From Bacteroidota bacterium (GTDB taxonomy: Bacteria; Bacteroidota; JABWAT01), in NCBI GenBank assembly GCA_013360915.1, contig JABWAT010000021.1, positions 1 to 40,788 of the forward strand: a stretch of 40,788 bases of DNA, given 5' to 3'. The position numbers and the translations under genes are program-made. Under the pieces are notes generated by a model. The model ran no database searches, had not been told where the DNA came from, and saw only the letters and a list, made by a program, of their open reading frames with translations. This document shows positions 3,019-35,223 of this stretch, piece after piece; position 1 is the stretch's first letter, and every line of letters starts with the position of its first letter.

Positions 3019-3917
3019 GAGGCGTTCCCGGAGTGGGTCCGGTCGGTCAGATTGTAGACAAGAATGCCGGAAATGGCAATGGCACCGCCGGCATAGACAT
3101 ACAGATCGAGCGTTTCTCCGCCGAGAAAGTATCCCACAAACACGGCCACGACTGGTGTGATGAAGGCCGACAGGGACAACGTGACCGCCTGAACCCGAGA
3201 CAGCAGCCACCAGTAAATGGTAAAGACGAGCACACTTCCCACCACCGTCAGATACAGGGTGGAGATCAGTCCGGATGCAGAAAAATGCACAGTGGTCCAG
3301 GATTCGGTCAGCAGACTCCAGATAAGAAGCAATCCGCCGCCGATGGCCATGGAGAGAAAATTCAGCATGATGGGAGAGATCCGGGTGGCCCACTGCCTGA
3401 TCGTGATGAGGTTAACGGCCTGAATCAGCGAGCTGAGCAGAATGAGCGACATGCCGCCCAGATAGGTCCAGTCGAAACCGGTGAGTTTCCGGCCGAAAAT
3501 CAGAACAATGCCCGCGAACCCCAGAATGAGCGCAAGAACCTTCGAAGGCGTCATCCGGGTTTCCTTCAGAATGAGCGCATTGCCGATGGCGACCCAGAAT
3601 GGATAGGTGGTGAACAGGATGCTGGCCAGTGCGCTGGGAATGTACTGCTGCCCAAGGTAAACCACACCGTAGGCCAGACCAAATCCGAGAACGCCCAGCG
3701 ACCAGACGGCCTTCCATTCGGAGCGGGAAGTGGGAAAGGGAGTCTTTCTGACGAGCAGAATGCCAGCAAAGATCACCGAGGCAAGCAGGAACCGGATGGC
3801 GCTTCCCAACAGGGGAGGAAAGGCATCATAGCCCCACTTGATGGCCAGCCAGGTGGATCCCCAGATCAGACAGATGGCAACAAAGCCCAAAGGAATGAGA
3901 AGACGGTCTGTTTTCAT
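3015..3917 (-). CDS. EamA/DMT-family transporter
   Basis: This is a ten-helix drug/metabolite-type exporter of about 300 residues with two EamA repeats. The first opens with the typical FVAICLIWGSTWLAIKWGYDAFPP and the second with YLGGMSLILLSSLIQAVNLITIRQW. Proteins of this family export metabolites or amino acids across the inner membrane; the substrate cannot be read from sequence. I chose the ATG at 3917 because family members usually begin a few residues before TM1. An ATG at 3971, right after AAAGGAA, would add 18 residues and is a real alternative. The gene is divergent from the PhzF-like gene and translationally coupled to the HExxH protein downstream. Confidence 0.88.
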   Translation of the reverse strand: MKTDRLLIPLGFVAICLIWGSTWLAIKWGYDAFPPLLGSAIRFLLASVIFAGILLVRKTPFPTSRSEWKAVWSLGVLGFGLAYGVVYLGQQYIPSALASILFTTYPFWVAIGNALILKETRMTPSKVLALILGFAGIVLIFGRKLTGFDWTYLGGMSLILLSSLIQAVNLITIRQWATRISPIMLNFLSMAIGGGLLLIWSLLTESWTTVHFSASGLISTLYLTVVGSVLVFTIYWWLLSRVQAVTLSLSAFITPVVAVFVGYFLGGETLDLYVYAGGAIAISGILVYNLTDRTHSGNAS

Positions 3918-22156: not shown

Positions 22157-25100
22157 ATGTTTCGTCAGTGGTTTTCCATTATCTGGTTCTTCATTCTGGT
22201 AACTACCACCACGCTTCAGGCTCAGGTAGGAGCACCGGGCAGTTTTGAGAAGTATGAGTTTCAGCCGGAGGCGTGGAGTCTTCCGGAATTCACAGCGGGC
22301 GATGTGGATGTTCATGGAAACTATAACACAAAAATTGATTTATTATCCATTTCATCACCATCCGGTATTTCCGTTCCTGTCAGTTTTTCCTATTCCAGCG
22401 ATATACGGTATGCAGATCCCGCTGGCTGGATTGGTCTGGGGTGGCGTTGGAATCCAGGTAGTGTAAACAGGCAGGTAGTGGGTTCATTGCCAATCCTGAG
22501 TAAGGAATTGGCAGGAGAAATCAAAACCATTTATGAGGAAATGCTGGCAATGGGGTCAAATGGACCTGACCTGGCCTCCAATATTGTGAGTTATTTCAAG
22601 GAGACGGGCCAAAAACGATCCTGGGATGGACTGAAGGATATATATACCGTGTCACTACCCAACGGAGCCTCCGTCAAATTCTCACTGAACACATCGGGCC
22701 CCGGAGGAACAGTTTCAGGTGGGGAAAACTATCATCTTTTCCAATCACATGGTGATAAATCTTATGAAATAAGGGGGTATTTTTCATCTGCTGGCATAAA
22801 AGGAAGAGTAAAACAATGTCCGCCATTTTTTGTGAATGGAATCACCTGCTTTCCAGATAATCAAAGCTTCGATTATTATGCGTTTGTAATCAGGGATGCC
22901 AGCGGGACTCAATACATTTTCTCAGAAACCACCAAGGAAATTTACCGTGGAAAAAATGGTTTGAAGAGCGAGTACTTTAATTCCTGGAGGATAACAGCTG
23001 TTGTCTCACCAATGAATATCAATTGGATTGATCCTATCAATCAGATAAGTCTGAGTCCCGAAACAATTCTGTACGAATACATCAATTGCGAGAATAGTCT
23101 CACAACGATAAAGGAAGGACACAACTGCAATAACTTCGATGGACTGGAGGATTATAAAAACTCCAAATATCTGGTCGGCATACAATCCATAAACGAAAGG
23201 ATTGAGGTGAATCTGACAGAAGATACTGATGAGGATATCACGAAGTACATGACTAGTATACTCCGTCAGGATATCAATACCACTGAGGAAGATCTTGAAT
23301 TCGACTATGAAATCACAACACGTAAACGCATACAAGCGATCTCTAAATTTATCAATCTTAACAATCAAAGAGGAGATACACTAAACCATGTGATACTTAG
23401 AGTCGAGAATAGCAACGGAAAAACTTTCCTGATAAGTATGAGGGATGAAGTAAAGAACCTGAATTATGGCTTTGATTATTTTGAGTATTATCCTACAGAT
23501 GACGGATTCAGGTTTAACCTCAGAAAACATCTCTTTTTCAATTCAGCGAGATATTACCACACCATTGATGGACAAGCAGGTCGCTATAATTGGCGAAATT
23601 GCAGTTGGGATATCAATGGCTATTATAAAAAATCCGATCACTGCTATGCAGGCAACCTGTATCCGGTCAAAGGTCAGCTTACTTCAATATTGTACCCTAC
23701 CGGTAAAAAGGAAAAAATAGACTATGAGACGAAGGAAATATTCATCGATTCGCTGTTTAGCATTCGATCAAGGATTCTGGACACCTATTTCTTTACAAAT
23801 CCAGTATTCAACAAGGGAATTTTAAGGGTTCATCTTGCAAGGGAGTTTGGCAGAGAAGCAAATATACAATACCCACAAAAGGATTATGAGGCCATGACAC
23901 AGATGGTGAACATGGGTCTCCTCTCTCAGGTTCAGATGAACACCATCATTAGTAACTATAAAGCAGCTCATTCGGTAGTGTCCTATTTTGGGAAGTCGGT
24001 TGTTAAGTCGATAACCATTCAGAATGCAAATGAACAGAAGAGTGTAAAGACATCCTATGAGTTTACGGATGGTTGGTTTGGCGGAATTCCAAACGAACTC
24101 AATTTCCAACGTTTTCAGTCATGTTCCTTTATCAATGAAAATGGAGATCTTGCCACGCTTCCTATTGAGCCATATAAGATGCAGCGGGCTGCAAAAATGA
24201 TGGGAACCGATAATCAGGTGTGGTTTAAGAAGGTCATTTCAAGAACAAACAAGATAAATCCGGTTGAAACGATCCGTACATACAACCAGTTTGCTCCGCA
24301 GCAGCATTATCTGGTTGTCGGTCCGGATGGCCAAAGCCGGGCGAGTTTTGTTCTGTTTTCAACGAATATGGAGGATTTGTATTTCGATGAAAAAGTGCAA
24401 ACCATCACAAGAACGGCCGATGCAAATGAAATTGAGACAACCAATTACCGGGATATAAGCCAGATCAATACCATTTACTCGTTTCCAAATACCTTGTCTG
24501 ATGATTGGTCCTCATTTGGAAAGGTTTATGGCGAGTTTCCAAAACCGCACAAGACGATCACTTATGAAAAAAGGGGGGGACTAACGGTTCTGAAGTCTTA
24601 TGATTGTACACTCTATGATGGCAGAGACATTCCGATTGCACAGGCGCAATGGGTCGGAATGAATGAAGCCAAGGATTCATCAGAATTCAAATTCAGTTAT
24701 ACGGTAATGGGTCGCCATCTGTACAGTCAATACAATGTCTCCAATCAATTGTCTGTAGCGTTTCAATCCCTTGCCGGAATTTATAAAACAAGGGGCGGTT
24801 TGAGTGATCAGTTTGAATTTCCATGGAACCAGATTTCCGGATTGTTTCCAAACCAATATGCCGGATATGATGGGACTGCAATGGTCACAATACCCAAACA
24901 CATCGTCATTACATCAAATCAGGTGACTACATCAGGTAGTTTTGCCTTTGGATTTTATCCGACAGCCATTTATAAAGGCAAATCTGAGAGTGGACTGCTT
25001 TTTTCATGCACGATTTCTGAAAACAATCCGTCACCAAATTGGAAAAATACACTGAAATACAAGGATTACAATTCATTTGGAAGGCCTGTTGCAGTTGAGA

Positions 25101-28100
25101 CTGATTTTTTACTCGAACAAACCTTCTATGGGTCAGAAGCTGATCCGTTTTCTGAAAATCCTGGCCTCAGTAACTGGTATAAAGCAACCGGGAAGATTAT
25201 TTCCAATCTGGATGGAACCATTAAAAGCCGGATCAGTGCACGGTACAACAGCAAAAACCTGTTAAGCATGGCAAGTAATGATTACCAATCCTTTTCCTTT
25301 TCTTATGATCGAAGCGGAAGGTTAAATGAAATCAGGCGAGGAACAGATCTGATTGCAAAAAATGAATATAATCTGGTCAATTCGACCATTTCCGGAATAC
25401 AAAACACAGATCAAAAATTTAATTTTATCAAAAATTACAAATTCTTCTACTCATCTCCTGATTCCTTCATCTGTAATACAATATTTCACGATGGACTGAT
25501 GCTGGTACAGAAAGCAACCGGATCAAACTCGCGTCAGATGGTTACCATTCCACTGTATGATGAGGATTGGAGAGTTGTTGGAGAAACGGTCCCGCTGGAA
25601 AACGCTGGTGGACCCGGCTTTTCATATGATTTTACTAAGGGAGTGAGTCAGTTAACGCTGAAAAACCTTTCACAACCAGTCGAAAAAGGAGTGATGAAGG
25701 CAAACAGACTTTCACCCTTTCCGGTTGAATCTGTGATTGAAGGTCTTGCCCCTGATTATGATGATATGTCGAGCTTCACAGTGGGTTTTCTACCATACAC
25801 ATACCTGCATGAGAGTCAAAATAAATCTTCTGTCCGTACCCGAAAACCCGGTGCTGATTTTATGGGGGGAAATGCCTGGGCCATACAATCAAAATACCAG
25901 AGAAACAATACATTGTATTCCATTGCTGCGGATGAAGACCGGCAGGTGGTAAAACTTTCAACAACCCAACCAGGTGGAAGGATTTGGAGTGAACGGATCC
26001 TCTCTCTCCATCTGGATGGAGTGCCACTATATCCGATAAACCAGATAAACGGAAAAATAGATGATCCTGATTTATATCCGGATACATCTGAATGGGTTGA
26101 ATTGAATAGCAGTACCCTTTACTACGACATCAAACCTGGATATGGACTGTTTTTAGCCAACCTGGCTGACCTGTCATTGCAATTTCCCGGAAAAAATCTC
26201 AGCGTTCGGATACGGGACTTTTTCACAAAGGAAATAATGGCGAGTCATCCTCTGACTGGGGTATCAGACAGTCTGGTGTTGCCTCTTATTCCCGGAAGGT
26301 ACTATGTTGACATGTATGCCGATTTTGATCAATTGATTCAGGTTGGAAACAATGGAATCCAGGCATTTGCTTTCCGTTATGAAGATTTAAAAACCATCCA
26401 AAAGGTGAGTTACCAATATAACCGATATGGCCATGTATCGATTGTTACCCACCCCGATGGAAAACAAACAAAATATGTAACCAATTTTTGGGGAAATGTG
26501 GTTAAGAAGGAAAGTCCGTACCATAACGCCAAACTGAAAAACGGGTCCTTTCCCGAATCTGATGTAAACAATAATCCGGATTTTGAGTATCAGTATGATG
26601 AGTGGGGAAGAGTAAGATTTATCATCGATCCAAACATGTCAGCCGCCGGTAAAATGCTGTATACCAAATATGATTTTCTGGATCGGCCGGTAGAAGTCGG
26701 TGAAATGACAGCTGGTTCAAACTTCTCATCTGCCAATGCAAATAACAAAGAATTTCCGGTAACCACGGTTTCCAATCTGAAATTAAGCGGGATAAGTAGC
26801 CCGGCTACAGATAGTCCGTCCGCCTGGGTGGGTGTTCCGGCTACCCCAAATGGAGTCAAACCTTTTCAGAAAATGTACTACGACTTAAACTCCACCCTGC
26901 ATGGCAAGCCAGCAGCCTATGGACTAGGGCGGTTGGGGTATGTCGTGGAGTATGTGCCGGTCTCAGGCTCGAAATACAAAACCATTCGTCGCTACTACAA
27001 TTACTCACCCGAAGGGTATTGCACAGAGGTGAATACCATTATTGGGACAGATCAGCAACAGGAAACATACGGGCAGCATGACCTGATGGGAAAATTCCGG
27101 TTTTACCAGCTGAAAATGAACAGCTCCATTCTGATGACGCGTTGGATCGATTACTACCCGTTGGGGCATGTAAAGCATCTGTGGCAGTCAACAAACGGGA
27201 TAAAGCCATCAGTCCCCACCCTTCGGTATGAATACGATGTCATGGGTGGATTGCTGAAGGAAATAGCACAGGGAACAGAACTTACCGTAACCCTCCGGGA
27301 TATCAGGGGGTGGGTACATAAGATTGAAGCAGGGTCTCATTTCAGTGAAGAGTTATACTACCATAAGCTTCCTGAAGACTTTCAGCCAGGCAGCACCGGA
27401 TCGGAATCCTTCCCGTTACACTTCAGTGGCAATATCTCGTTTATGAAAACTTACCAGAGCACCTTTCAATCTGCCAATCCGGTAACAATCACCGGGTTTG
27501 AGTATGATAAAATCGGACGCTTACTATCCTCGCGTACTTTGAATACAGCAGGTGAGGAAATCGGTCTTTTTAATATGGATTTACGGTATGATATCATGGG
27601 GAATATACTCAGTCAGTCAAAAAACACTCAGAATATGGAAACAGGGCATCCTTTTCAAGTAGATGATATGGTTTACCAATATGCGGATGGCCGTCTGATG
27701 AATGTTCTGGACCGGATTGATACGGATCAGACAGATGACTACGAGACGGTGCGAAATTCGATTATTGGGTCAGGTGAAGCCATGTTTGTTACAACCAAAC
27801 CAGTTACGGAAACCTTCGATGAGTTTGGGGTAAAAACCGGAGACAGACCTGTTTCAGAAACCTGGGATGCAGTTGGTTTTTACGGTGGGGCAGATCCTGC
27901 ATCCTCTGTCAGTACCATATCTGAAAGCGGTGATATTGTGCTGAAACTACGTCCAACGACGGAATACACTAACTCGAGTATCCGCTCAACCCTTCAGCCG
28001 GTAACTCCCAAAAGACAGTATCTCCTTTCTGGAAAATACAAGGGAAAGCCGTATTTTAACGGAGAGGTAAATGTGAATCCGAAGGTTTATGCGGGTATTG

Positions 28101-29668
28101 AGTGGCTCCGCGCAAATGGGTCACGAATATCAGTCAAATGGGTGGTAAGCGCTCAATACGCATCTTCATGGAAATATTTCTCGGGTGCTTTGGCTGCACC
28201 AGACGAGGCGACTCATGCCAGACTACTCCTGGTGAACATGACATCTCCGAACACCGAGGTCTACTTCAACAATATCAGTTTCAGTGAAGATGGTCTTGCA
28301 TTTGCTTATGATGGCAACGGAAACACCATCAAAGACCTGAATCGTGATATTGCCTCCATTCAGTATAACTTCCTGAACCTTCCCGAAGTCATTACCCGGG
28401 TTGATCAAAGTTCTGTACGTTATGCCTATTCCTGGTCCGGTCAACGGCTTTTCAAAATAATTGGTACGGATACCACCGTTTATATACGTACGGCGACAGG
28501 TGAAATTGCTGGCGAGTTTTTGAACACGACCAGCAATACTTCCTATATAACCATTCTTGGGGCAGATAATTCAGCGGCCGGGCAGTTCAGAAAAGAAAGT
28601 GGAAACTGGAAGTCCTTCTTTTTTGTGAAAGATCATTTGGGCAATAACCGGTTAACCCTCCGGGTAGAAGGCTCTTCACAAACAGTGGTGAGTGCAACCG
28701 ACTACTATCCCTTCGGTTCGGTAGCCCGGGAAATGAACGCATCATCCGTTGAGAATGCCAAGTTCCGTTACCAGGGAAAGGAACGCGACCTAGAGACAGG
28801 GTATGATTATTTTGAAGCAAGGACCTATGATAGTCAACTTGGTCGGTTTTTGCAGGTGGACCCGTTGTGGGAAAAGTACAGATTCATGAGCACCAATGGA
28901 TTTGTTGGAAACAATCCAATTATATTAATTGATCCAGATGGAATGGAAATATATTATTCTCAAGATGGTACAAAACTTGGGCAGGTTGGAGATAATACAG
29001 ATATACGTGTAATTAATTCTACAACCTCAAAGAAGGATGCATTGAAGTTGATTGAAGAAGCAAATGCAAAGACAAATGGCTCTGAGACCGCTTCAAATGA
29101 ATTGACCGTTGAGAGTGTAGCCTATTCTGAATATTTTAAAACGGTTTCGGATGTTACAAATGGTGCAGCACTTGAAACATACAAGAACAACAACAATGAT
29201 TGCAATGAAGCGGCCATTCAACAGTTGGCTAACGAGGGAGTCACACAAGGTGGACCTGCAACAGCCATAAATGCTGTAGTTGATAATTCGTTGACTATAA
29301 ACACGAAGGCGGGAAATAACAGTGATCTTACAGCTGATCCAATTGGTGCTTCTATTTTAATACAAACTCAACTAAATAAGGGAAATCCGGTAATGGTAGG
29401 TGTAAAAGAAACAAAAAATGATGGGACCGTTCCGAATCCGGGTAATACAAATGCTCTAACTGGACATTTTGTGGTCATCAGATCAAGTAATGTTTCGAAT
29501 GGAATAGTTCAATTTAACTATTTAGACAATGCAAGTAGTTCGTCTGGAAAAAGTGCAAAAAACAATTTTACATTAAATACAAGTAATGGTGAAATCTATG
29601 ATAACTCCGTTCATGCAAGACCGAACTACTCGAACTATTTAGTAACGGAAGTTAGGAGGAACAATTGA
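22157..29668 (+). CDS. Full-length Rhs/YD-repeat polymorphic toxin with C39/papain-like peptidase tip
   Basis: This is a 2503-residue exported protein with a Sec signal (1-22, ending LQA). An N-terminal wall domain typical of Bacteroidota Rhs proteins follows (PVSFSYSSDIRYADPAGWIGLGW). YD-type repeats include FEYQYDEWGRVRFIID, LRYEYDVMGGLL, FEYDKIGRLL and FAYDGNGNTI. A jelly-roll-like insert lies about 1885-2050. The Rhs-associated core covers about 2155-2260 (DHLGNNRLTLRV, DYYPFGS, YQGKERDLETGYDYFEART, GRFLQVDPL, ILIDPDG). After it comes a 245-residue tip that turns AT-rich. Cys2349 (NDCNEAA), His2437 (GHFVVI) and Asp2457 (YLDNAS) have the order and spacing of a C39-like peptidase, with the typical LNKGNPVMVGV strand before the His. 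The product is probably a contact or secreted toxin; the export route beyond Sec is unknown. Confidence 0.88.
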   Translation: MFRQWFSIIWFFILVTTTTLQAQVGAPGSFEKYEFQPEAWSLPEFTAGDVDVHGNYNTKIDLLSISSPSGISVPVSFSYSSDIRYADPAGWIGLGWRWNPGSVNRQVVGSLPILSKELAGEIKTIYEEMLAMGSNGPDLASNIVSYFKETGQKRSWDGLKDIYTVSLPNGASVKFSLNTSGPGGTVSGGENYHLFQSHGDKSYEIRGYFSSAGIKGRVKQCPPFFVNGITCFPDNQSFDYYAFVIRDASGTQYIFSETTKEIYRGKNGLKSEYFNSWRITAVVSPMNINWIDPINQISLSPETILYEYINCENSLTTIKEGHNCNNFDGLEDYKNSKYLVGIQSINERIEVNLTEDTDEDITKYMTSILRQDINTTEEDLEFDYEITTRKRIQAISKFINLNNQRGDTLNHVILRVENSNGKTFLISMRDEVKNLNYGFDYFEYYPTDDGFRFNLRKHLFFNSARYYHTIDGQAGRYNWRNCSWDINGYYKKSDHCYAGNLYPVKGQLTSILYPTGKKEKIDYETKEIFIDSLFSIRSRILDTYFFTNPVFNKGILRVHLAREFGREANIQYPQKDYEAMTQMVNMGLLSQVQMNTIISNYKAAHSVVSYFGKSVVKSITIQNANEQKSVKTSYEFTDGWFGGIPNELNFQRFQSCSFINENGDLATLPIEPYKMQRAAKMMGTDNQVWFKKVISRTNKINPVETIRTYNQFAPQQHYLVVGPDGQSRASFVLFSTNMEDLYFDEKVQTITRTADANEIETTNYRDISQINTIYSFPNTLSDDWSSFGKVYGEFPKPHKTITYEKRGGLTVLKSYDCTLYDGRDIPIAQAQWVGMNEAKDSSEFKFSYTVMGRHLYSQYNVSNQLSVAFQSLAGIYKTRGGLSDQFEFPWNQISGLFPNQYAGYDGTAMVTIPKHIVITSNQVTTSGSFAFGFYPTAIYKGKSESGLLFSCTISENNPSPNWKNTLKYKDYNSFGRPVAVETDFLLEQTFYGSEADPFSENPGLSNWYKATGKIISNLDGTIKSRISARYNSKNLLSMASNDYQSFSFSYDRSGRLNEIRRGTDLIAKNEYNLVNSTISGIQNTDQKFNFIKNYKFFYSSPDSFICNTIFHDGLMLVQKATGSNSRQMVTIPLYDEDWRVVGETVPLENAGGPGFSYDFTKGVSQLTLKNLSQPVEKGVMKANRLSPFPVESVIEGLAPDYDDMSSFTVGFLPYTYLHESQNKSSVRTRKPGADFMGGNAWAIQSKYQRNNTLYSIAADEDRQVVKLSTTQPGGRIWSERILSLHLDGVPLYPINQINGKIDDPDLYPDTSEWVELNSSTLYYDIKPGYGLFLANLADLSLQFPGKNLSVRIRDFFTKEIMASHPLTGVSDSLVLPLIPGRYYVDMYADFDQLIQVGNNGIQAFAFRYEDLKTIQKVSYQYNRYGHVSIVTHPDGKQTKYVTNFWGNVVKKESPYHNAKLKNGSFPESDVNNNPDFEYQYDEWGRVRFIIDPNMSAAGKMLYTKYDFLDRPVEVGEMTAGSNFSSANANNKEFPVTTVSNLKLSGISSPATDSPSAWVGVPATPNGVKPFQKMYYDLNSTLHGKPAAYGLGRLGYVVEYVPVSGSKYKTIRRYYNYSPEGYCTEVNTIIGTDQQQETYGQHDLMGKFRFYQLKMNSSILMTRWIDYYPLGHVKHLWQSTNGIKPSVPTLRYEYDVMGGLLKEIAQGTELTVTLRDIRGWVHKIEAGSHFSEELYYHKLPEDFQPGSTGSESFPLHFSGNISFMKTYQSTFQSANPVTITGFEYDKIGRLLSSRTLNTAGEEIGLFNMDLRYDIMGNILSQSKNTQNMETGHPFQVDDMVYQYADGRLMNVLDRIDTDQTDDYETVRNSIIGSGEAMFVTTKPVTETFDEFGVKTGDRPVSETWDAVGFYGGADPASSVSTISESGDIVLKLRPTTEYTNSSIRSTLQPVTPKRQYLLSGKYKGKPYFNGEVNVNPKVYAGIEWLRANGSRISVKWVVSAQYASSWKYFSGALAAPDEATHARLLLVNMTSPNTEVYFNNISFSEDGLAFAYDGNGNTIKDLNRDIASIQYNFLNLPEVITRVDQSSVRYAYSWSGQRLFKIIGTDTTVYIRTATGEIAGEFLNTTSNTSYITILGADNSAAGQFRKESGNWKSFFFVKDHLGNNRLTLRVEGSSQTVVSATDYYPFGSVAREMNASSVENAKFRYQGKERDLETGYDYFEARTYDSQLGRFLQVDPLWEKYRFMSTNGFVGNNPIILIDPDGMEIYYSQDGTKLGQVGDNTDIRVINSTTSKKDALKLIEEANAKTNGSETASNELTVESVAYSEYFKTVSDVTNGAALETYKNNNNDCNEAAIQQLANEGVTQGGPATAINAVVDNSLTINTKAGNNSDLTADPIGASILIQTQLNKGNPVMVGVKETKNDGTVPNPGNTNALTGHFVVIRSSNVSNGIVQFNYLDNASSSSGKSAKNNFTLNTSNGEIYDNSVHARPNYSNYLVTEVRRNN

Positions 29669-30354
29669 AAGTTCTTATTCTATTGATAGTGTTATATCCC
29701 CTGTTTTTTGAGACTTTTGATTTAAAAAACAATGAGGTGAGGTATCGGTATTATTTAAACACCAAACTTATGCAATGTATAGATTCAACACTTCTTTGTA
29801 ATTGTGTCAATGGTATTGGAGAAGCAACATATATAATTGTTGTAGATAGCAGTGAATCGCAAAATGATTATATTGTTTGGCCACATAATGGTTTAAGAGA
29901 TCCGAGTACTTACAGGATAAGGAGTGATAGTTTACTTCCGAATGAATCCAAGGTCTTAACATTTAATAATTTGGTTTTAGCATCGATGATTTATCATAAT
30001 GATTTGTTGGAAATATCAATAGGCAAAAATAAGTACCATTTTATTATGGTGAAAGAAACTGTAAGCTTATATACAAAAGAAATTTATAGAATATTGTTTG
30101 GGTTGTTTAATGAAAACGTGAAGAAGCATGGTGCGGATTTAATAGCAATGACAGGAACAGATTCACTTGCCATTTCCTGCAATTATTGGTTTAATGACAA
30201 GGATATGTTACACAAAATTGGTACATCTGTATCTTGGGTATATCAACTGGAAAATGACAGTCTTGTATTCTATAAAATCATGGGTGATGATCGGGATGCG
30301 TCAGATTCCTTGCTACTTAAAAAGGACTTTGGCATTAAATGGAAATGTGATTAA
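29665..30354 (+). CDS. Probable immunity protein for the C39-like Rhs tip
   Basis: This is a 229-residue protein unlike anything I recognise. It begins MKVLILLIVLYPLFF, a signal-like stretch, so it is probably exported. It starts with TTG at 29665, overlapping the rhs stop (TTGA), with AGGAGGA ideally placed at 29654-29660. The coupling to the toxin frame is what one expects of an immunity gene. It is AT-rich like the tip. Role inferred from position only. Confidence 0.7.
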   Translation: MKVLILLIVLYPLFFETFDLKNNEVRYRYYLNTKLMQCIDSTLLCNCVNGIGEATYIIVVDSSESQNDYIVWPHNGLRDPSTYRIRSDSLLPNESKVLTFNNLVLASMIYHNDLLEISIGKNKYHFIMVKETVSLYTKEIYRILFGLFNENVKKHGADLIAMTGTDSLAISCNYWFNDKDMLHKIGTSVSWVYQLENDSLVFYKIMGDDRDASDSLLLKKDFGIKWKCD

Positions 30355-30528: not shown

Positions 30529-31578
30529 TCACAAGACCAACGCAGGTGTTTGGCTGGTTAGAAACAGACCACGCCACCTATTGTAAACCAGATTCCTCGG
30601 TGAGAAGGCCGTTGTTTCTCTGGCCAACCACCGGTATCGGAGCCTGCCCAATTTCAGCTTTGTTCGTATGTTTCAAAAGTCCTGCTCGACTCCGCACTGG
30701 ATTTTTGCTAGCCGGCTATAGCAAGTCGTCTCTTCCTCTGTCAGTAGGGGGCCCTTGTAACCCGTCTTTGTGTTCATGATATCTCTGTTTTTCCCAAGAC
30801 TACAATCAAAGGGTTTTTAAAGGTACCCACCTTCTGCGTAAACGGTTTGTCCTTTGTCAGCCTCAGCAATCAATTCTTCAATAACCTGGCTGTCATGAAC
30901 ACTGGCTGGTGTGGTCTGGAAATCAATGATCAATTTGCTCTTCCGGTCAACTTTGATATGATTCTTATACCCGAAATAGCTTTTCCCGTGCTTTTTGGTC
31001 CAATCTGCATCGGTATCCTGCTGACGTTCACTGTTGGGGTTGACTGGTTCCTCACTGTTACCATCCGGTTTCTTTGTCCGGGGACGGGGAGCTTCAACAA
31101 TACTGGCATTGATAATTCGACCAGTGTTCAGTATCAACTGGTGATCGGCTAACCGACGGTAAAACTCATCAAACAGTTTATTAAGTACTCCTTGTTGAGT
31201 TAATTGATCCCGAAATAACCAAATGGTCTTCGCATCCGGTACATCATCTTCAAGGTTTATTCCGAGAAACCGGCCGAAGCTCATCCGATCGAGTATCTGA
31301 AATTCCATTTGATCATCACTGAGATTATATAGCGTCTAAAGAATCAGAATCTTAAACATCATCACACGGTCAAAGGGAGGGCGACCACCTTTCTTCGGGT
31401 CTGTAACGGGGAAGTAATTTTCTATGATAGGGCGGAATGACTCCCAAGAGATTCTGGCGTTTAAATCAATCAAGACATCCTTCTTTTGCTGAACCTTCTC
31501 CGAACGTTTTTCCCCATCAAAGAAGCTCAGGATTTTCCGCTTTTTCCAAAAAATGGGAAGTCCTATTTTGCTGTTCAA
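30529..31578 (-). pseudogene. IS5-family transposase broken by three in-frame stops
   Basis: A single frame of 350 codons can be followed from the ATG at 31578 to TGA at 30529. It is interrupted by TAG at 31336-31338, TAA at 30817-30819 and TGA at 30673-30675, with no frameshift. Family motifs appear on both sides of each stop: GRPPFDRVMMFKILIL before and TLYNLSDDQMEFQILDR after the first, KSYFGYKNHIKVD and ASVHDSQVIEEL in the middle, GYKGPLLTEEE and CGVEQDF before the third, then FSPRNLVYN. The length is that of an intact IS5 transposase. The protein cannot be made, so the element is dead. Confidence 0.88.
30812..30827 (-). repeat. Copy of the IS end sequence inside the transposase frame
   Basis: GGTACCTTTAAAAACC on the minus strand at 30827-30812 matches the outer end of the element (GGCACCTTTAAAAACC at 31603-31588) at 15 of 16 bases, in the same orientation. 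It coincides with the TAA stop of the pseudogene. The reading frame and expected residue spacing continue on both sides, so no clear insertion is visible. Confidence 0.45.
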
Positions 31579-32459: not shown

Positions 32460-32897
32460 ATGATTTACAAACCCATTCGGGTCCTTCTCTTTCTGTTTAT
32501 TGGAACTATTGTTGTGTCCCTCCTTTTTCTTGCATGCAATGATGCGTCAGGAAGGCAGGACCATGCATTTGAATCCCAGACCAAAGAAACGAATCAATCT
32601 CATCATCTGCCGGATTCTCTGGATCCTGCTTGTTTGAACATGAGATATATTATCGCCGAATTCGGAAATCAGAGAGATACAGAATCCGTTATCCTGGATA
32701 CCACCTGGATCACCGATCGCTCACGATTGGATTCCCTGTTTTCATTTATCAGGAAGTATTCGACAGAAGAACCGGAACCTGCGGGTGATTCACTGTGGGT
32801 CCGGAAATTTGAAGTGGAAGGATTCAGCTTCAGTTTTACGTATTCAATCATCAATAACCGTTTTTGTCCTGCTGAGTTACTGGAGTATTTTTTCTGA
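32460..32897 (+). CDS. Orphan lipoprotein ending at an Rhs fragment
   Basis: This is a 145-residue lipoprotein with a long hydrophobic start and lipobox LFLAC (Cys26). The rest is short, acidic and unlike anything I recognise. It follows the previous gene by nine bases and probably shares its transcript. Its TGA stop at 32895 is immediately followed, in the same frame, by an Rhs-core fragment, so its 3' end may have been cut by the cassette junction. Role unknown; an immunity lipoprotein is possible. Confidence 0.55.
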   Translation: MIYKPIRVLLFLFIGTIVVSLLFLACNDASGRQDHAFESQTKETNQSHHLPDSLDPACLNMRYIIAEFGNQRDTESVILDTTWITDRSRLDSLFSFIRKYSTEEPEPAGDSLWVRKFEVEGFSFSFTYSIINNRFCPAELLEYFF

Positions 32898-33413
32898 ACA
32901 GGAACCCTCTCCGGTCTGAATAAGTACGGCTACTCCTGGTCGGGTGCACGGCTCTGGAAAAAGACCCCGGCATCCACTACCTTTTACCTTCGCGCATCGG
33001 ATGGAAGCATTCTCGGTGAGTACGCAGGGGCGGTTTCCACGCTGAAGTACCTCATGCTGCCAGGTGCGGGTGGTACCACGGAAGGTCAGTGGGAGATGAA
33101 TGGAACGACTTTCATGGCCGAGTATTTTTACATCACCGATCATTTGGGGAACAACCGTGTATCGGTGAAAAACGAAGGAGGCACCCCGCTCGTAACCGGC
33201 AAGACCGACTATTACCCGTACGGTTCCGTTTCCCGCGAGTGGACAACCTCAACCGAGAATTTGCGAAAGTTTAAATACCAGCAGAAAGTTGAGGTAATCC
33301 GAAATCCGGCTTTAGACGGAAACGTGACCTGGAAACAGGCTACGACTACTTTGAGGCTCGGACCTATGACAGCCAGATTGGGCGCTTTTTACAGGTGGAT
33401 CCGATGGCAGTGA
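32898..33413 (+). pseudogene. Displaced Rhs core fragment, cassette B
   Basis: An open frame without a proper start encodes YGYSWSGARLWKKTPA, then ITDHLGNNRVSVKN, DYYPYGSVSREW and NLRKFKYQQK. This is the Rhs-associated core up to the point where YQGKERDLETG is expected. There, 36-odd extra bases and a frame slip divert the frame, which ends at 33413. The normal continuation RDLETGYDYFEARTYDSQIGRFLQVDP is found one frame away. At base level the copy is very close to the cassettes at 34870 and 39518 and much less like the full-length rhs gene. Probably untranslated donor DNA for recombination. Confidence 0.8.
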
Positions 33414-34648
33414 AGTTCAATTCTATGTCTCCATTTTCTGCAATGGGCAATAGTCCTGTTTATTTAATTGATCCGGATGGTGAGGAGATAATTATCCACT
33501 ATGAAGAAGATGACGTAGATGAAAATGGCAAAGTAAGGAAAGACGCTAATGGTAACAACATCAAGGTTAATAAATCCTATACGTATCAGGCTGGTCAGAA
33601 ATATTCTGGTGGAAACTCATTTGTTGCTGGTGTTGTTGGTCAGTTAAATACAATATTGGCGAAAGGTGATGATTTTACGAAACAGGTAATTAATGAATTA
33701 TCCAGTACTGGTGAAAGTTCACAGGTTTATGATATTTTTTCAGTAAATGGTGGAGAAGAGTCGTTTAGTACAACCTCAAATAATTTAGAAAATGAACGTA
33801 ATGGTATACCTACTGGTTCAACTATGTTTTACAATCCTGAAACAGGCGGAGTAGATAAATTGGGTCATGAGCTTTCACATGCTTACGATAACCAAAAAGG
33901 AACCACCAATTTTGATAATCCTAATTTAGGAATAATGTATAATAAAAAGCCATTGTTAATGGATGAAATAAATGCGGTTGGTTTTGAAAATGGTGTACGT
34001 GTTAAAAATGGTATGCAACCAAGATCAGAATATGGCGGCGTCTCGATTCCAGATAAGTATTTAAAATCAAGAAGACCAGGACCCGGTAAACAGAAGTTAC
34101 CACCTTTTCGAAATAATATTATGAATGCAAAATTTATTATCACACTTCTACTTTGTTGTTTTTGCACACAAGGTTGTTTTTCCCAAGTGATTACAAGTGA
34201 TAAAGACAGTGTGTTTTATTGGAATAATTTCATGTCAAAATATGTTACTAAAACAATCAAATTTAATTCAAATAATATGATTTTGGTGCTTAGCACCAAT
34301 GATTATTTTTATGAATTATTTATTGAGTCTGGAACAATAATATCACGGGAAGAATTCAGAAATATTTGGGTTCGTGATACGGTAGAAGTTAGCCAACGCA
34401 CTTTTAATAAAATCAAAGATTTATCTTATGATCCGAACAAAATGAGTTCAGTGATTTTTCAGAAAAGTGCTTTAGAGATAGAAAAAGCATTTTTTAAGGA
34501 GAATATTATGGATGACGAAAAAATTAAGTTAGTTGATAGTCTTAATCATCTGGAGTTCGGGCGGTCGATTATCTACAAACTACTTCAAAACGGCTATTTA
34601 ATTAAACATTCTGAATATTACGGACTACCTTATATCGAGAGAAATTAG
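33293..34648 (+). pseudogene. Displaced Rhs tip B: M91-like metallopeptidase fused in frame to its immunity protein
   Basis: The frame opens after a TGA at 33290 and reads RDLETGYDYFEART...GRFLQVDPM, then the Rhs end YLIDPDG. The tip that follows contains GHELSHAYDNQKG (HExxH) and, later, MDEINAVGFENGVRVKNG with R-S-E-Y. Both blocks match the M91 (NleD-like) effector peptidases often found at Rhs C-termini. At about 34100 the tip ends, but no stop codon occurs: the frame continues through FRNNIMNAKFIITLL into a signal-bearing second protein. The only starts are a GTG at 33395 and internal ATGs without a ribosome site, so the tip is probably silent. Confidence 0.7.
34121..34648 (+). CDS. Probable immunity protein B (internal start)
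   Basis: From ATG 34121 a 175-residue protein begins with a clear signal sequence (MNAKFIITLLLCCFCTQGC), either a lipobox at TQGC or a signal-peptidase site after CFS. The rest is AT-rich and not known to me. It lies where an immunity gene for tip B should be, but the upstream stop and the AGGAGG seen in the other modules are missing. A deletion of a few codons at the junction would explain the fusion. If it is still made, it must start internally. Confidence 0.5.
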   Translation: MNAKFIITLLLCCFCTQGCFSQVITSDKDSVFYWNNFMSKYVTKTIKFNSNNMILVLSTNDYFYELFIESGTIISREEFRNIWVRDTVEVSQRTFNKIKDLSYDPNKMSSVIFQKSALEIEKAFFKENIMDDEKIKLVDSLNHLEFGRSIIYKLLQNGYLIKHSEYYGLPYIERN

Positions 34649-34785: not shown

Positions 34786-34869
34786 ATTCGTTCCTCCGAT
34801 GGCTGTATCTTAGGGGAGAACAATAATTCTTTAAGTTCTTTGAAATACCTCTCCTTGTCTAGTACAATC

Positions 34870-35223
34870 GGAACAGAAGGTCAGTAGGAGATGAATGGAA
34901 CAACTTTCATGGCCGAGTATTATTACATCACTGATCATTTGGGGAACAACCGTGTATCGGTGAAAAACAACGGAGGCACTCCGCTCGTAACCGGGAAAAC
35001 AGACTACTACCCTTACGGTTCCGTTTCCCGCGAGTGGACAACCTCAACCGAAAATCTGCGAAAGGTTAAATACCAGCAGAAAGTTGAGGTAATCCAAAAT
35101 CCGGCTTTAGACGGAAACGTGACATCGAAACAGGCTACGACTACTTTGAAGCAAGAACCTATGATAGTCAACTTGGTCGGTTTTTGCAGGTGGACCCGTT
35201 GTGGGAAAAGTATTTTGAAATGA
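34870..35223 (+). pseudogene. Displaced Rhs core fragment, cassette C
   Basis: This is a shorter core copy than B and D. It starts near GAACAGAAGGTCAG, where a TGG codon has become TAG at 34885, so even a read-in frame would stop. It continues MNGTTFMAEYYYITDHLGNNRVSVKNN and carries the same extra bases and frame slip after KYQQK as cassettes B and D. The last 68 bases (35145-35212) switch identity and equal the full-length rhs gene at 28811-28878 with one mismatch. It is a mosaic made by recombination. Confidence 0.8.

Follow-up and report, generated by a model that had tools for sequence, protein, structure and literature searches.

Cassette C, one of the orphan rhs cassettes in the 40,788-nucleotide stretch of DNA analyzed here (the window, which is the whole of contig C21, 40788 bases), is a mosaic in which two diverged rhs core lineages are joined within a short conserved motif. 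The reading that we favor, with a probability of roughly 0.7, is that recombination between these two core lineages produced cassette C as an orphan module of Rhs toxin and immunity genes, with its core tail and tip derived from a full-length rhs gene of the type found upstream in the same window.

From left to right, the array contains gene A and its putative immunity gene, then the remains of a DDE insertion sequence, and finally cassettes B, C, and D; gene A, the cassettes, and the putative immunity genes are on the plus strand. Gene A (22157..29668, 2503 aa), apart from which no rhs gene in the window is intact, encodes a full-length protein with YD/RHS repeats and an Rhs-associated core (PF05593, RHS_repeat, E 2e-7; TIGR03696, Rhs_assc_core, E 1.3e-18), with a signal peptide predicted from a reading of its N terminus. 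The 3' core tail of gene A (28811..28878) is the segment common to cassette C and is followed by tip A (28879..29668), which appears papain-like by a motif recognized by eye (NDCNEA ... GHFVV) and has a weak C39_2 match (E 0.066). A putative immunity gene, so called because of its position and hydrophobic leader, overlaps the stop of tip A (29665..30354), and a broken DDE transposase (DUF772 plus DDE_Tnp_1, 30817-31560) lies between this gene and cassette B.

Cassettes B, C, and D are core fragments without the N-terminal part of an Rhs protein; each matches TIGR03696 at its start (E 1e-8 to 3e-8), and their divergent tips are mutually unrelated. In cassette B, the head (32890..33349) is followed by a core tail of its own, unlike those of A, C, and D (33350..33417; 72% to C and 71% to D), and by an M91-like tip with the motif HELSHAYD (33418..34648; Peptidase_M91 E 4e-4, below cutoff). 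The intervening stop is missing, so that 33341-34648 is one frame in which the tip is fused to a putative immunity gene with a signal-peptide-like start (ATG 34121). Cassette C begins with a left core remnant of the B/D subfamily (34786..34875, with the protein match starting at 34786), followed by a B/D-type head (34876..35144), an A-type core tail (35145..35212), tip C (35213..35924), and, judging from its position, a putative immunity gene with a hydrophobic leader (35926..36777). Cassette D consists of a head (39479..39968), its own core tail (39969..40036; 71-73% to B and C), which may begin ∼20 bp earlier, at RDQ, and a tip with a HEIRH motif (40037..40718), after which an immunity-like gene is cut by the contig end. 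The small ORFs with hydrophobic leaders 3' of tips A, B, and C would be candidate immunity genes; in a profile search, the ORFs next to tips A and C matched no family.

The heads of the three cassettes belong to a core lineage other than that of gene A. At the DNA level, B and D, which blastn aligns over 32890-33406 and 39479-40025, are 96% identical in their heads, C is 93% identical to B and 94% to D, and identity to gene A is 63% for B, 65.5% for C, and 68% for D (51% at the protein level). The orphan core fragments and the full-length core next to them therefore belong to different clades (63-68% versus 93-96% among heads), a mismatch that makes it less probable that B and D were simply displaced from gene A but does not count against membership of an Rhs locus in general. 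In all three heads, the frame is also broken by an insert of ∼32 bp located between KYQQK and RDLETG (33288..33320 in B, 35083..35115 in C, and 39907-39939 in D, which has a second, 30-bp insert at 39831-39860); the insert, seen in the alignment, is matched by a short-repeat model at 33291-33325 in B and 35086-35120 in C. Because the heads carry this insert and no proper start codon, with only internal GTG and TTG starts in the tip ORFs, we infer that cassettes B, C, and D are silent. The insert sits at the same place in all three heads and is therefore older than the head copies. As a candidate cause of the junction in cassette C, it was rejected because it is the same insert at the same place in each head and there is no evidence that it drives recombination.

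Against this background, the core tail of cassette C stands out by its near identity to that of gene A. The preliminary description had equated 35145-35212 with 28811-28878, with one mismatch in 68 bases and different tips beyond, and both points were borne out: the segments are identical at 67/68 positions and at 21/22 third codon positions, with the sole mismatch at 35156, and in the 68 bp just 3' of the tail (35213-35280) the identity of C to A falls to 36/68, which is the background level. The longest exact match is the 56 bp at 35157-35212, and the A/C link as a whole amounts to ∼97 bp at 91%, including the 68 bp at 98.5%. In ungapped comparisons of the same stretch, C agrees with B at 49/68 and with D at 46/68 positions. 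The encoded motif, YDYFEARTYDSQLGRFLQVDP, is conserved, as would be expected if the tail were similar in A and C merely by general conservation among rhs genes, a possibility that the preliminary description had raised against its own reading. However, when A, B, C, and D were compared pairwise among themselves and with five long or orphan rhs genes from three family-mates (G001-G003, uncultured Bacteroidetes MAGs), the pairs other than A/C agreed at only 40-52/68 bases and at no more than 15/22 third positions, and the family-mate genes matched A or C at 43-50/68. Further, the core end of A, used as a DNA query against the whole 3.65-Mb genome assembly, matched A and C only. General conservation is therefore excluded, and we give it practically no weight.

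A recombination breakpoint test, proposed as a check in the preliminary description, was decisive. With A and B as candidate parents, the informative sites in 34876-35212 of cassette C number 95 of B type and 21 of A type; none of B type lies beyond 35144, and the 18 sites at 35150-35212 are A-like without interruption. None of 300,000 permutations of this region reached the observed value of that excursion. Similarly, within the gap-free 97-bp block, six B-like sites are followed by 18 A-like sites, a perfect split with an exact probability of 1.5e-5. Just 5' of the A-type tail (35116-35144), C equals B at 27/29 and A at 21/29 positions. A recombination junction within cassette C is thus strongly supported, and the crossover interval is 35145-35149, inside the conserved codons for YDY/FEAR (the YDYFEAR motif). 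The crossover or gene conversion that the preliminary description had placed exactly at the core-tip border is hence upheld as recombination but not in its location: the breakpoint lies 64-68 bp upstream of the border (35213), which is simply the end of the shared core tail. Likewise, C follows B and D toward ∼35140, as had been described, only from ∼34876 (93-94%); at 34786-34875 it is only 51-52% identical to them. Because of this second break near 34875, cassette C is at least a three-part mosaic.

Cassette C is not special in breaking at the YDYFEAR motif. It is also where B and D cease to resemble one another, identity dropping from 96% in the heads to 71% in the tails, and each cassette consists of the common head, its own core tail, and its own tip, the tail of C simply being A-type. 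Because B, C, and D share the head while the tails of B and D are only 71% identical, the tails travel with the tips.

These observations bear on how the A-type tail could have reached cassette C. According to the reading that we favor, the 68-bp core tail, the pre-tip, and toxin tip C, probably together with its immunity gene, would once have formed the end of an A-type full-length rhs gene, either gene A itself, at a time when it had tip C in place of tip A, or its counterpart in a sister strain. A crossover in the YDY/FEAR codons would then have joined tail and tip C to the orphan head common to B, C, and D. With the head silent, tip C would have to return to a full-length gene by recombination in order to be expressed. 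This order of events and the direction of exchange are tentative, but tip C was very probably once worn by an A-type full-length gene. A single reciprocal circle integration at 35145, the displacement step of Jackson et al., was considered and rejected because it would give A a tail of the incoming type and not one common with C; at least one further or non-reciprocal step is therefore needed. A low-stringency self-blastn detected no homology 3' of the immunity genes of A and C that could be a trace of a former shared position.

Alternatively, tip C may already have resided in a B/D-type cassette, and homologous recombination, stopping at the limit of homology, would have transferred only the 68-bp tail, from A to C or in the opposite direction. 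The two segments lie within 7 kb of each other on one contig, the tract stops at 35212, where homology stops, and, given that the A-type tract is short (68 bp), an A-to-C patch conversion with the same end points would look identical to transplantation of tail and tip. Yet there is no homology to the right of 35212 to close such a tract, every cassette has a different tail, so that tails normally come with their tip, and the pre-tip of C resembles the long genes of the family-mates. We therefore regard patch conversion as unlikely and transplantation of tail plus tip as the likelier event.

The draft state of the genome (51 contigs, several of which end within rhs regions) also brings in a possible assembly artifact, in which the 56-bp exact match at 35157-35212 acted as a k-mer repeat and caused an exchange of flanks; tip C would then in reality belong to the long gene and tip A to the cassette. 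A misassembly, however, permutes flanks and cannot create a shared segment; the match reaches left beyond the private mismatch at 35156 to 35145, and 56 bp are usually spanned by reads. We consider such an artifact very improbable.

Tip C resembles L,D-transpeptidase (Tlde1/YkuD-like) tips, to judge from an H...S.GC pattern (GVYIH...SKGCILI) and a YkuD match below cutoff (E 0.026). The IH and S.GC residues, with the H and GC among them, are invariant across four homologues. The distant homologues of tip C terminate rhs cassettes or core ends of other Bacteroidota, and one of them matches Tlde1_dom at E 1.4e-4, below its cutoff. In one homologue of tip C (L150 in G262, minus-strand ORF 1462-2310), the core motif contains extra residues (YDYF-SHRDGKP-GARYYDSEV), so that this rhs core end, too, may have acquired a small insert. 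When 296 genomes of the phylum were searched at the protein level, with the species represented by a single genome, no copy of tip C on a full-length gene or elsewhere was found other than these distant homologues. When the core tail plus pre-tip was compared with the long rhs genes of the family-mates (best loci of G001-G003), amino acid identity was 69-74% for C, 57-61% for B, and 35-53% for D, a ranking that fits an origin of tail and tip C in a full-length gene of the family-mates' lineage.

A short repeat of ∼25-35 bp with the core GAAATCCGGCnnnAGACGGA is found beside rhs cassettes and, within rhs core ends, at several different motifs (preceding ERDLETG, within DYYPFG, preceding HENEFG, at FYD/PAIGRW, and at LQVD/PLREF). 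Copies in the window lie at 33288-33320, 35083-35115, 39831-39860, and 39907-39939; others in the genome (G000) lie on contig C25 (1755-1785, 1992-2020, 3344-3379, 3431-3463, and 3794-3826), at C17:53010-53043, and at C24:30373-30404. In an exact pattern search of the genome, 9/10 matches were in or beside rhs loci. All matches to the repeat model with E < 0.01 were also in or beside rhs loci, but all of these are seeds of the model, so that only the pattern search is independent. Contig C25 (1-3700, locus L184) holds a second array of degenerate rhs cassettes, with heads repeated at 103-209, 2033-2139, and 3531-3618, that likewise bears short repeats. We also entertained the idea that, in this uncultured Bacteroidota family, the shared non-coding orphan head serves as a landing handle, through which tips of different core lineages enter one silent array by YDYFEAR crossover, with the rhs-restricted ∼35-bp repeat possibly taking part and with exchange not confined to a single core clade, unlike in Enterobacteria; we hold this to be quite unlikely.

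Common core tails before different tips were the rule in the other Bacteroidota rhs arrays checked (G048, G016, and G012), and one cassette in G048 (L189:10771) combines a shared tail (94%) with a head that is foreign (58%). The genome analyzed here also offers an example of the ordinary pattern: contig C30 ends within the core of a long rhs frame, and this end is 95% identical over 169 bp of rhs core to the sequence that precedes the rhs tail at the C17 terminus (C30:18268-18436 and C17:52806-52974). Because these segments lie at or near contig ends, rhs repeats are probably where the contigs break, and the assembly would then underrepresent the true rhs content of the genome.

Overall, the mosaic in cassette C is real and statistically decisive, a clear but essentially ordinary instance of the known process of Rhs tip swapping, in which the cross-lineage core junction is unusual. 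It provides a base-level record of tip movement, with the junction in a short conserved motif and two diverged core lineages joined, which should be rare under the published displacement model. This suggests that silent cassettes in this lineage may come from more than one parent gene and predicts that tip C will be found on an A-type full-length gene in sister strains.

Displacement of orphan tips and their recombination have already been published (PMC2935791, PMC3967940). As in the Rhs C-terminal displacement described by Jackson et al. in 2009 (PMC2935791), core fragments bearing divergent tips and accompanied by immunity-like genes lie in tandem 3' of a full-length rhs gene, and the junctions lie in the conserved core. 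In that study, the associated core regions and the dissociated ones were in every case identical or members of a single clade; here, by contrast, B, C, and D have heads from a core lineage distinct from that of gene A (63-68% at the DNA level and 51% at the amino acid level), and only the 68-bp tail of C is A-type. Similarly, in Salmonella, Koskiniemi et al. (2014) reported recombination between rhs-main and rhs-CT-orphan via 522 bp of 95% identity (PMC3967940). In both cases recombination within the core that they have in common could transfer an orphan tip to the main gene, although A and C are linked by far less, the ∼97 bp described above. Finally, the silent 3'-end cassettes with immunity ORFs 3' of a full-length toxin gene recall the meningococcal tpsA/tpsC cassettes (PMC3848433), which, however, belong to an unrelated protein family that uses two-partner secretion.
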